A stretch of DNA of 64,000 bases from Selenomonas sp. TAMA-11512 (GTDB lineage Bacteria; Bacillota; Negativicutes; Selenomonadales; Selenomonadaceae): assembly GCF_037076525.1 (NCBI RefSeq), contig NZ_AP029018.1, positions 806,001 to 870,000 of the forward strand. Direction: 5' to 3'. A program made the position numbers and the translations under genes. Positions 6,177 through 62,441 of the stretch are shown one piece after another; the first letter of the stretch is position 1, and each line of letters starts with the position of its first letter. The notes under the pieces are model-generated. The model saw only the letters and a program-made list of their open reading frames with translations. It searched no databases and was not told the DNA's origin.

Positions 6177-6185
6177 TTTCAAATG
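6177..6185. repeat. Left 9-bp target-site duplication of the ISLre2-type element
   Basis: TTTCAAATG occurs here and again at 7753-7761, exactly at the outer edges of the inverted terminal repeats. A 9-bp duplication is what the ISLre2 family generates. Confidence 0.85.
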
Positions 6186-7752
6186 GTAAGTGTAAAATAG
6201 TTCTCGGAGGGGGTTGCAAAAAGAGAAAGAGACCAGTACCCTAAAGTGTATGCTAACGAGGCGAATACACAAGAAGGAAGGTCTCTTATGGAAACCATTG
6301 TAACAGAAATCCTGGAAATAATAAAGGGTACAAAAGACAATATCTCACAAGAAGAACAACTGCGCAGTTACTTTGAGATCCTGATATGCCGTGCAGTTAG
6401 TGAGGCATTCGAACGAATTGACAAAGAACTGGCAAAGCGATACGCAGCCAAAGGCTGGCACGTGGAACGGCTTGATGCACGGTGCGTGCAAGCAAGCTAC
6501 GGAACGATTCAAATCCGTCGCAGGCGCATGAAAAAAGAAGGAGAAGCCAGTATATACCCCTTGGACAAAGAAGTGGGTATTCGCCCTTACCGGAGATACA
6601 CCGCCTATTTGGAATACGTTATTGCCTGTATTGCAGCCAAGAGCGTCTACCGTGATACAGCCGCTGTCGTCAACCTGCTGAGTCCCGTCACGATAAGCCA
6701 CCAACAAGTTGCACATGTCGTGAGACGAGTAGGAGAAACCTATGGTGCTTGGGAGAAATTGCAGGAAAGCACCGATCCCATGGAAGAGACAGAACTGCGC
6801 CGACCGGAAGTTCTCTACATCGAAGGGGATGGACTCATGCTGCACGGGCAGAATAAGAAACAGCTCGAGCTCCATCGATTCCAAATCGCCGAAGGCGTGC
6901 AAGAAAACGGCAACCGTCGTACCCTTATTGGCACCCACTATGTAGCGAATCTCGATCACGAGAAAGCCAAAGAGAGTCTGCTGCACTATCTGGGGAGCCA
7001 CTATGATCTAACCCATACCCTGGTTCTGAGCAACAGTGATGGAGGTGCCGGTTACACCTGCGGCGTCTTTGAAGAAATCCTTGGAAGCGTCGGCCAGCAT
7101 GAGCACTTTCTGGATTGGTACCACGTACAAAGGAAATGCAGAGAACGCCTTTTATGGGCGAATTCGACCCTGTGTAAGAAACTACACAAAGCGCTGTATA
7201 TACATGAGCGTGAGGAAGTGAGCCTTGTATTGGATACCGTGGAATCTATGTCCCAAGATGAGCGACAAACGGAACAAGTGGAGCTTCTTCGAAAGTACAT
7301 AGAAAGAAACTGGATATACCTTGCCGGCTTGGAAGAACGAGGGATCGGGGAATACAGGAAGCTTTTGGGGACGTGTGAAAGCAACCATAGGCTCTATAGC
7401 TACCGGATGAAGAAGCAAGGCAGACGATGGAGTCGAGCCGGTGGCGAAGCGATGGTAAAGATCATCACTGGATTGAAGAATGGTGATCTGCGAGAGGCCA
7501 TGGCGGCGAAGGCGAAATTGTTCAATGAGAAGGTAGGAAGAGACTTCCGCGGAGCCGTGCGAGAGGCATTGAAAAGAAGCAAGAGCACGACGTATGACGG
7601 GATCCGACACGGGAGGATTACAGTAAGTGCGCCGATGAGCAGTGGGATTGGACATTTGTCCAAATGCTTTGCTTAGAGGCAAAAAAGGCTATACCACGAA
7701 GGCAGACACATCAAGGGTGAAAACTCACCACCGAGAAAATCTTGACACATAC
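6186..7752 (+). mobile_element. Complete ISLre2-family insertion sequence (1567 bp)
   Basis: The left end begins GTAAGTGTAAAATAG and the right end, read on the minus strand, begins GTATGTGTCAAGATT; about 19 of the first 28 bases agree. Both ends are flanked by the same 9-bp target sequence TTTCAAATG. One long transposase gene fills the element. The identical duplications and unbroken transposase indicate a fairly recent, probably active insertion into the gap between nfo and a permease gene. Confidence 0.88.
6288..7676 (+). CDS. ISLre2-family transposase (UPF0236)
   Basis: A 462-residue transposase that recognises the ends of its element and moves it. The N-terminal 60 residues look like a helical DNA-binding part, followed by an Arg/Lys-rich stretch near residue 85. 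Acidic residues for a DDE-type site are plausible in YIEGDGLM, LSNSDGGAGY and CESNHRLYSYR; the last segment is a strongly conserved family block. AAGGAAGG precedes the ATG at 6288; an in-frame upstream start at 6246 has no ribosome site. It is more AT-rich than its neighbours, as expected for transferred DNA. The family is recognised from the overall sequence; the exact catalytic residues are inferred. Confidence 0.93.
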   Translation: METIVTEILEIIKGTKDNISQEEQLRSYFEILICRAVSEAFERIDKELAKRYAAKGWHVERLDARCVQASYGTIQIRRRRMKKEGEASIYPLDKEVGIRPYRRYTAYLEYVIACIAAKSVYRDTAAVVNLLSPVTISHQQVAHVVRRVGETYGAWEKLQESTDPMEETELRRPEVLYIEGDGLMLHGQNKKQLELHRFQIAEGVQENGNRRTLIGTHYVANLDHEKAKESLLHYLGSHYDLTHTLVLSNSDGGAGYTCGVFEEILGSVGQHEHFLDWYHVQRKCRERLLWANSTLCKKLHKALYIHEREEVSLVLDTVESMSQDERQTEQVELLRKYIERNWIYLAGLEERGIGEYRKLLGTCESNHRLYSYRMKKQGRRWSRAGGEAMVKIITGLKNGDLREAMAAKAKLFNEKVGRDFRGAVREALKRSKSTTYDGIRHGRITVSAPMSSGIGHLSKCFA

Positions 7753-7761
7753 TTTCAAATG
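7753..7761. repeat. Right 9-bp target-site duplication of the ISLre2-type element
   Basis: Second copy of TTTCAAATG, directly outside the right inverted repeat; pairs with 6177-6185. Confidence 0.85.
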
Positions 7762-7816
7762 TTTTCCACTTGCTGTAAAGAAAAAATCATAGTACAATAA
7801 AACCGATTTGTTTTTT

Positions 7817-7849
7817 TAGGATGCGCTGTATGCATCAGCGATTCCTTTA
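7817..7849. repeat. Minimal copy of the dispersed inverted-repeat element (copy C)
   Basis: About 33 bp in which the two terminal repeats almost touch: AGGATGCGCTG, then five to seven bases, then CAGCGATTCCT. It matches the termini of the longer copies at 62277-62441 and 21252-21310. It lies directly before the ribosome-binding site of the following permease gene. Confidence 0.6.
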
Positions 7850-7878
7850 AAGGGGGGAGCAGATCGCAGATTCCATTT

Positions 7879-8970
7879 GTGTTATTCCTGGCAGTGCTCT
7901 ATACAAAAGCGGGGTTCGGATTGGAGACTGCGCTTTTCCTGTGCTTGCTGTGCGCCCTGTGCGCGCCTCTTTACAGGAAGCTCGTGCGCGGCTGTCTGCC
8001 GATGCATTTCTGGATAACGGTATCAATATGGCTTGTCTACGGACTTGTTCTGAGTAATGGAGCGGCGCTCTCCGGCATTGTCTTTCTCCTGTTGGCGCTG
8101 CTCCTGTGGCTGCCTGTGTACGCCCGCTCCTCCGCGCTGCAGCGTTGGATGGCCCGCGCCTTGCCGGCAGGAATCAGAGAGGGGCTCTATATGGGGAGCG
8201 CCGTACTCCTCGTGTACGCGGCGCTCATCCGCGGACGTCTCGTCGTCGGCTCGCCCGTGACGGTGACGATGATAGGGGACGTGCTGGAGCCGGTGGCTTT
8301 CTATGCGCTCTTCGGCGCTGCTGCGGCGATGGGCGCGTACGCTGCCGGCTATACGCGGTCGGCGGCGCTTGGCGGAATGCTCGCGTCTGCTGCGGCAGCA
8401 TGGGTGGACGGCTTTTTGGCTTTTCCCGTACCGTGCTTCGGTGTGCTGCCGCTGACGCTGCCCCTTGCCGTGCCGCTCGATGTGCCTGCGGAACCGGCTG
8501 CATGGATTGCTCTCCCCGTGCTCTTTCTGGCTGCAGCGGCCTTTTATGTGCCGGATAAAGCGCCGAAGGAGGCGACGGGTACAGCCCTTGCTTCAGACCG
8601 GTGGCCGAGAGGCCGACGGGCGGCGGACACGGCAGCTCTGCTGCTTCCGGTGCTTTTCTATCCCGTGGTGGAGGAGATCGCTTACACCCCGGCGCTTTTG
8701 ACGGGGGCGGTGCTGGTCGTCGGCATGCAGGCATTCCGGCAGGCCGGACGCATCCGTGCATTGCCGATTGATACGAGACCTGCCCGTGCGGCGTTTCTCG
8801 TCGGCAGTATGTGCCTGCCGCTCTCGTTCAGTCTGACGGCGGGGCTCTCTCTCATGTATATTGCCTATGTCACGGCTGCTCTTCCGGGCGGCGGATGGCG
8901 TACGGTATCAGGCGCGGTCCTTGTGTTGGCACTGTTGTCGCTCGTTCAATGGATTTCTTTTGCGCCGTAG
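7879..8970 (+). CDS. Reduced, divergent NCS2-like (AzgA-type) purine permease homologue
   Basis: A very hydrophobic 363-residue protein with roughly ten membrane segments. The order of segments recalls the AzgA branch of NCS2 purine permeases: an AGFGLETALFLCLL region like the second helix, LPAGIREGLYMGSAVLLVYA like the family's helix after a short amphipathic stretch, and a C-terminal EEIAYTPALLTGAVLVVG and LPLSFSLTAGLSLMYIAY resembling the family's last helices. The first helix and the central substrate-binding block are missing, and the protein is about 70-90 residues short. The start is unclear: GTG at 7879 sits 19 bases after AAGGGGGGAG, whereas ATT at 7870 has ideal spacing. Transport function is doubtful; it may be decaying. 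Confidence 0.55.
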   Translation: MLFLAVLYTKAGFGLETALFLCLLCALCAPLYRKLVRGCLPMHFWITVSIWLVYGLVLSNGAALSGIVFLLLALLLWLPVYARSSALQRWMARALPAGIREGLYMGSAVLLVYAALIRGRLVVGSPVTVTMIGDVLEPVAFYALFGAAAAMGAYAAGYTRSAALGGMLASAAAAWVDGFLAFPVPCFGVLPLTLPLAVPLDVPAEPAAWIALPVLFLAAAAFYVPDKAPKEATGTALASDRWPRGRRAADTAALLLPVLFYPVVEEIAYTPALLTGAVLVVGMQAFRQAGRIRALPIDTRPARAAFLVGSMCLPLSFSLTAGLSLMYIAYVTAALPGGGWRTVSGAVLVLALLSLVQWISFAP

Positions 8971-9038: not shown

Positions 9039-9809
9039 ATGAAGTTCGGTATGACGAGTAAGAAGTCGCTCTCTCGTGTGCTTGCGGCAGCTGTGCTGTC
9101 CGGAGCGGTGGTTCTGTCGAGTTCTGCGGATGACGCGGAGGCGAAGCGCCTCCACGATCCGGCGGTTGATACGCAGGTGACGACGACGGCAAAGTCGGAG
9201 CGCGTCTCTATCAAGGATAGAATCCAAAGCATTCTGGACGAGGGCAAGTCGGATTCGTCGGCATCGTCGATGCCGGATCCGTACGCGCTTGTGCCGTACA
9301 GCGCGACGAGTGATATTCTTGGGAAGCCGATGGCAACGGCGGAGCAGTGTGTACGCTATCTCCTGTCGGTCAATCCGTCGCCCAGCATCTCGGTCACACC
9401 GGAGGAATTGGTATCTTATTACTACGAAGAGGGCGCGCGTGAGGGCATTCGTCCGGATGTGGCGTTTGCGCAGGCGCTCAAGGAGACGGGCTTTTTCCGC
9501 TATGGCGGAACGGTCACGCCGGATCAGAACAACTACTGCGGTCTCGGTACGACGAGCGCACATGTCAAGGGAGCATACTTCCCGACAGCGCGCATCGGCG
9601 TCCGTGCGCACATCCAGCACCTCAAGGCGTATGCCTCGACACAGAAGCCTGCCGAGAGGGTTGTCGATCCCCGCTATGATCTCGTACGCAGCACCTACGG
9701 TAAGCGTACACTGGGCAAGTGGCAGGATCTCAACGGACGCTGGGCCGTACCGGGTACGACGTACGGACAGAGTATCCTGCAGATGCACCGCACGATGGTG
9801 GGACACTAA
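9039..9809 (+). CDS. Secreted glucosaminidase-domain protein (peptidoglycan hydrolase)
   Basis: A 256-residue exported protein. Residues 1-34 form a signal peptide (two Lys, a hydrophobic core, and an Ala-rich cleavage region near SSADDAEA). A low-complexity linker of about 60 residues follows. The C-terminal 140 residues match the endo-beta-N-acetylglucosaminidase fold: ITPEEL-like entry, the catalytic Glu in AQALKETGFFRYGG, NNYCGLGTT, and GVRAHIQHLKAYAS, with the terminal YGQSILQMHRTM. It probably cleaves glycan strands of the cell wall in the periplasm or at the surface. GAGGAGGAA precedes the ATG by eight bases. It stands alone between the permease and the ABC-F gene, with no clear promoter of its own. 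Confidence 0.9.
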   Translation: MKFGMTSKKSLSRVLAAAVLSGAVVLSSSADDAEAKRLHDPAVDTQVTTTAKSERVSIKDRIQSILDEGKSDSSASSMPDPYALVPYSATSDILGKPMATAEQCVRYLLSVNPSPSISVTPEELVSYYYEEGAREGIRPDVAFAQALKETGFFRYGGTVTPDQNNYCGLGTTSAHVKGAYFPTARIGVRAHIQHLKAYASTQKPAERVVDPRYDLVRSTYGKRTLGKWQDLNGRWAVPGTTYGQSILQMHRTMVGH

Positions 9810-9813
9810 GTAA

Positions 9814-11460
<1,647 letters not shown>

Positions 11461-62276: not shown

Positions 62277-62441
62277 GGGAAGCGCTGATAAAATGAAGTC
62301 GCCCGGATTTGCACAGATGCACTGTATCTATCTAGGAGACAAACCGCAGGCGTAGTGGTGCTATGTCGAGGATTTGTCGACGAGGAGAGGGCAGCGCAGA
62401 TGTGTGAAGATGGGTGGCTGAATGCATCAGTGGTTCCTAAG
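62277..62441. repeat. Longest copy of the dispersed inverted-repeat element (copy D, about 165 bp)
   Basis: The left end GGGAAGCGCTGATAAAATGA and the right end on the minus strand TTAGGAACCACTGATGCATT are imperfect inverted repeats. It begins at the base after the binding-protein stop and sits inside the ABC operon. No reading frame of note is inside. Related shorter copies are at 7817, 21252, 27374 and 36600. Confidence 0.7.

Follow-up and report, generated by a model that had tools for sequence, protein, structure and literature searches.

The gene at positions 7870-8970 of the window (the whole 64,000-nt stretch analysed, from the 2.59-Mb, single-contig genome of Selenomonas sp. TAMA-11512, hereafter G000) encodes a shortened membrane protein without an obvious start codon and lies just behind mobile and repeated DNA. 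Where is it translated from, and is its odd 5' end inherited or the result of damage? The original prediction offered two answers: either a repeat insertion had removed the 5' end of a gene that is now decaying, or the gene represents a divergent NCS2 subfamily with a minimal core. The features of the locus are as follows.

6177..6185 (no strand): left copy of the 9-bp target duplication, TTTCAAATG
6186..7752 (+): ISLre2-family insertion sequence (NF033529, E 8.7e-94; UPF0236), transposase reading frame ending at 7676
7753..7761 (no strand): right copy of the target duplication, TTTCAAATG
7770..7798 (+): sigma-A type promoter, TTGCTG-17 nt-TACAAT, -35 beginning 17 nt past the end of the insertion sequence
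7820..7848 (+): fragment of a dispersed genomic repeat in the 5' leader, downstream of the -10/T-tract and upstream of the ribosome site
7850..7859 (+): Shine-Dalgarno sequence, AAGGGGGGAG
7870..7872 (+): proposed AUU start codon
7870..8970 (+): reduced AzgA/NCS2-like membrane protein, 366 aa, from the proposed AUU start to TAG 8970
9039..9809 (+): glucosaminidase-domain protein, syntenic neighbour
9838..11460 (+): syntenic neighbour, which we take from its sequence type to be an ABC-F ATPase

The open reading frame at 7870-8970 is real. As originally described, it comprises 363 codons from GTG 7879 (366 from ATT 7870) to TAG 8970 and stays open upstream through the repeat, with no stop as far as 7801. 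The claim that no ATG lies near the 5' end also held, and it extends to all canonical codons: no ATG, GTG or TTG stands in frame at a workable distance from the Shine-Dalgarno sequence. Counted from its GGAG (7856-7859), ATT 7870 lies ~10 nt and GTG 7879 ~19 nt downstream, leaving a near-cognate codon at Shine-Dalgarno spacing with no canonical alternative. Folding of the leader RNA (7804-7872) gave a z of -2.12, and the U-tract may pair with the Shine-Dalgarno sequence, mostly through G-U pairs. The GC3 of the gene is 0.69, compared with 0.60-0.80 in its neighbours.

The relationship to AzgA/NCS2 permeases, proposed by eye, was confirmed through orthologues. The window protein itself has no Pfam or NCBIfam match at E<=1, PF00860 included. 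It matches 92 of 151 family genomes. Where tblastn matched an orthologue (27 loci), the glucosaminidase was matched as well in 26 cases, L032 being the exception; at L030 and L042 this search matched the glucosaminidase but no orthologue. A profile built from 23 sequences finds 180 of 189 family genomes, a count that takes in other NCS2 permeases too, and in genus g13 the best profile matches fetched do not adjoin a glucosaminidase when read by hand. Pfam tests on nine orthologues (six without a match) and on a second set, with L025 in both, covered 11 distinct sequences, three of which match PF00860 (L028, 3.2e-45; L024, 4.6e-20; L046, 2.8e-10) and eight of which have no Pfam match. Against solved structures, the orthologue profile hit AZG1 at E 2.6e-49, and the model of the full-length orthologue L160 (pLDDT 92.8) resembles AZG1 with a TM of 0.80. 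Together with the PF00860 members, these matches identify the clade as NCS2/AzgA in both descent and fold. The window gene is an orthologue in this fast-diverging, syntenic AzgA/NCS2-type clade of Selenomonadaceae, beside the glucosaminidase/ABC-F pair, and the divergent subfamily of the original prediction is supported.

Selection persists in this clade. Across 17 close orthologue pairs dN/dS ranges from 0.014 to 0.30 (synteny being unconfirmed for the 0.014 pair, L083/L084), and the pair from the related genus g30 gave 0.18. The genus of the window organism is sampled by one genome, and a peptide-based contig scan found no close sister species. One AzgA study (PMC11527162) names Asn in TM3, Asp in TM8 and Glu in TM10 as substrate residues. 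We surveyed them in 107 distinct sequences (135 loci before duplicate removal), of which 23 were set aside by hand because synteny was absent or unknown; the TM8 position was mapped by alignment only. All three residues are kept in 20 of the 23 set-aside sequences but in only 13 of the 84 syntenic ones; 71 of the 84 thus lack the full triad of the AzgA/AZG subfamily, and 29 have lost every residue of it. Triad loss alongside low dN/dS suggests that the syntenic clade moved away from the canonical purine site under continued selection, and a new transport specificity is possible. The clade, mostly missed by family databases, offers a tractable case of transporter repurposing, in which purine-binding residues were repeatedly eroded under persisting selection. 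The window copy has Ser at the TM3 site, Glu at TM10 and an Asp inside its eroded TM8, where the alignment is uncertain.

A minimal core is not the conserved state of the clade. Orthologue frames are mostly 420-450 aa long; those of genus g21 (383-399 aa) are short through a missing C-terminal end, and the two losses of the window copy recur in no other row of the orthologue alignments. Compared with L160, the window copy lacks residues 1-28, 220-241 and 261-272, besides smaller gaps. These losses comprise the first half of TM1 (~28 N-terminal residues) and most of the TM7-TM8 region (at least 34 residues around TM8), and what stands in place of TM8 is a proline-rich stretch. The missing central block of the original prediction was thus recovered, whereas its missing first helix is lost only in part. 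A structure search against NCS2 proteins, which succeeded for L160, gave the window protein no Foldseek match at E<=0.001 (top AZG2, E 0.48); its AF2 model has a pLDDT of 68.4, too poor to decide which helices fold, although the C-terminal part reaches ~90, and VIA-align placed this model on AZG2 with Z 10.2 and rmsd 5.8 over 256 residues. Its mean NCS2-to-neighbour distance ratio (4.47) is the highest of 37 taxa, the next being 4.26, and its terminal branch ratio is 7.0. Nevertheless, there are no stops in the 366 codons, and the deleted blocks preserve the frame. In a neutral drift simulation (200 runs), the frame stayed stop-free in 5% of runs at 20% amino-acid change and in 1% at 30%, limits that tighten with an assumed indel rate. 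Most of the divergence therefore arose with the frame kept, and the decay originally proposed, if any, must be recent. Purine transport by the window copy has probably been lost or altered. The genome also encodes three other, intact PF00860 permeases, which could make the gene dispensable. In G084, the orthologue L154 has a frame of only 308 aa, possibly an independent truncation.

Two features beyond the original prediction, the complete ISLre2-family insertion sequence and the intact promoter, lie upstream of the gene. The element combines a transposase match, a target duplication and a site upstream of a sigma-A promoter. According to Guerillot et al. 2014 (PMC3942029), the ISLre2 family prefers a fixed distance upstream of sigma-A promoters, with an enrichment at 16 bp. 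The 20 copies in G000 (L002-L021) agree with this and show nothing unusual: the best -35 begins 14-17 nt past the right end in 18 insertions, although the promoter match is poor in a few of them, and 24 and 30 nt past it in the remaining two. A simple promoter scan did not list the promoter at 7770-7798 because its -35 is weak, matching the consensus at just 3 of 6 bases; the arguments for this promoter are the target rule of the insertion sequence, a -10 shared with g30 and its position. The insertion sequence ends 117 bp before ATT, with its 9-bp duplication intact and with the promoter and Shine-Dalgarno sequence in between; its target site being upstream of an intact promoter, the gene was left untouched. 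As an observation on the genome at large, the position of the 18 copies means that this family may influence many promoters in G000.

The repeat is real, but it belongs to the 5' leader and precedes the ribosome site. Searching the whole genome with the leader DNA returned only the leader itself at E<=0.001, so the repeat was tested by pattern, and its core has 58 genome matches at <=2 mismatches compared with none for a reversed-pattern control. The fragment belongs to a longer dispersed unit, many copies of which read as protein; this repeat may be protein-coding. Further copies occur at 62417-62437 of the window and genome-wide (L217-L236), the longer ones reading as protein, e.g. ...ERAEKMRQDGCAAFISASL.

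The genus g30 provides the comparison that bears most directly on the start. In both of its species (G029 and G051), AAGGGAGG is followed by 10 nt and then ATT, with no ATG, GTG or TTG in frame upstream. Homology at the N-terminus begins at this ATT (FSFP...RREVLGG, compared with WFAF...FRTEILAG of canonical members), giving a full-length N-terminus. With the 29-nt repeat (7820-7848) left out, the leaders of the window gene and of g30 can be aligned from the -10 through the Shine-Dalgarno sequence to ATT with a score of 42, which was reached by none of 2000 shuffles (max 30). Of 123 orthologue leaders, none reached it when compared with the window and one did when compared with g30. Two neighbouring cuts scored 38, and keeping the repeat in scored 31. 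With lax gaps the alignment is weak, its score being reached in 37 of 1000 shuffles and by 7 of 996 segments drawn at random from the window, with several other orthologue leaders higher; part of the similarity is also expected, because the -10 and Shine-Dalgarno sequences are functionally constrained. In a tree of the glucosaminidase and ABC-F proteins, the window and g30 are sisters (UFBoot 91).

Leader collinearity, taken with the full-length g30 N-terminus, the absence of a canonical start upstream and a dN/dS of 0.18, makes AUU initiation look inherited and not a product of mobile-DNA damage. The window gene is likely translated from AUU 7870, a start that probably descends from an ancestor shared with g30. 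Several results count against the AUU reading. An internal GTG 21 codons downstream in g30 also has a strong SD-like sequence upstream (-10.9), which leaves the g30 case strong but not airtight. In addition, the coding sequences of the window gene and of g30 do not align directly behind ATT, and when the NCS2 tree is left unconstrained, the window copy falls outside a clade that includes g30. Codon preference of the window gene is low (0.061 per codon, against 0.066-0.216 in nine neighbours), with -0.157 in its first 61 codons. Finally, an automatic start count over 81 orthologues, from which the non-syntenic set and six loci truncated at their ends were excluded, found 76 canonical starts with a Shine-Dalgarno sequence, 4 canonical codons with a weak one and a single copy, that of the window, with no canonical candidate; the g30 copies and the copy of G027 fall into its canonical class because in-frame canonical codons lie inside the limit.

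On balance, we favour, with some reserve, a divergent permease orthologue that would have shrunk in this lineage, is started at AUU as in g30 and has been repurposed or is in early decay. The ancestor common to g30 would already have had the AUU start, and g30 would have kept a full-length copy by purifying selection, in a fast-evolving clade where most canonical purine-binding residues were lost. In the window lineage, a repeat fragment would have entered the leader and an ISLre2-type element would have inserted ahead of the promoter. The protein would have been shortened by ~28 residues at its N-terminus and by much of the TM7-TM8 region. Transcription would run from the gene's own promoter and translation from AUU would be weak, being disfavoured by IF3. 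This protein probably still inserts into the membrane, but it is unlikely to work as a normal purine symporter. The main rival is that the gene is a recent pseudogene which, having lost two blocks as well as its start, is now neither translated nor selected. This is a distinctly less probable but serious reading: the outlying distance and branch ratios, the poor model next to that of L160, the proline-rich remnant of TM8, the low codon preference and the three other permeases all speak for it. Against it stand the stop-free frame with its in-frame losses, a GC3 within the neighbours' range, the intact promoter and Shine-Dalgarno sequence and the lack of a canonical start behind the Shine-Dalgarno sequence in g30 as well, whose gene is under purifying selection.

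A start at GTG 7879 or another canonical but poorly spaced codon, with ATT coincidental, would use a standard codon and finds a parallel in the internal GTG of g30. It is unlikely, given the ~19 nt from the Shine-Dalgarno sequence and the recurrence of ATT at matching spacing behind collinear leaders in two genera. A minimal NCS2 transporter working with fewer helices would fit the well-modelled C-terminal part and its alignment to AZG2, but no other aligned orthologue shares the two losses, the TM8 block that carries the substrate-binding Asp in AzgA is largely missing and the best Foldseek hit is insignificant, making it very unlikely. Removal of the original 5' end by the repeat or the insertion sequence has in its favour that both elements lie directly upstream. 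It is extremely unlikely, as both insertions are upstream of the ribosome site, the 9-bp duplication is intact, promoter and Shine-Dalgarno sequence separate the insertion sequence from ATT and, once the 29-nt repeat is disregarded, the leader is collinear with that of g30.

If the preferred AUU start is correct, the closest known parallel is infC. As reported in PMC5472188, IF3 discriminates against noncanonical starts, E. coli infC starts with AUU, and the GTC start of sigR in Streptomyces is repressed by IF3. The window gene resembles infC, whose AUU start serves IF3 autoregulation, in having a near-cognate start behind a strong Shine-Dalgarno sequence; it differs in that infC encodes a translation factor, whereas the window gene encodes a membrane permease. 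The sigR case sets a precedent for an IF3-controlled noncanonical start outside infC, although it differs from the window gene in codon, gene and phylum. In a comparison that leaves out G022 (L213), infC starts with AUU in G000, G029, G051 and G026 and apparently with AUA in G027. The G026 permease starts with ATG despite the AUU of its infC, so the parallel is not general. Searches of an open-access library found nothing on Selenomonas start codons with IF3 or on a conserved AUU-started, IF3-linked permease. It is a speculative and rather doubtful idea that in some Selenomonadaceae a near-cognate start matching the organism's own infC (AUU in G000, G029 and G051, AUA in G027) couples translation of this permease-like protein to the IF3 level, with the gating conserved between genera. 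If true, the permease would be a rare non-housekeeping member of the IF3-gated genes, and a cross-genus AUU start outside infC would provide a ready test of wider IF3 gating. Gene finders assume ATG, GTG or TTG starts, and genes started at AUU are therefore mis-annotated or dropped.

In G027 (genus g28; L216, L157), where infC apparently starts with AUA, the permease-like gene also has ATA at Shine-Dalgarno spacing, but GTG and TTG codons lie in frame upstream of the Shine-Dalgarno sequence and an ATG lies 10 codons downstream, and we set this copy aside as ambiguous.
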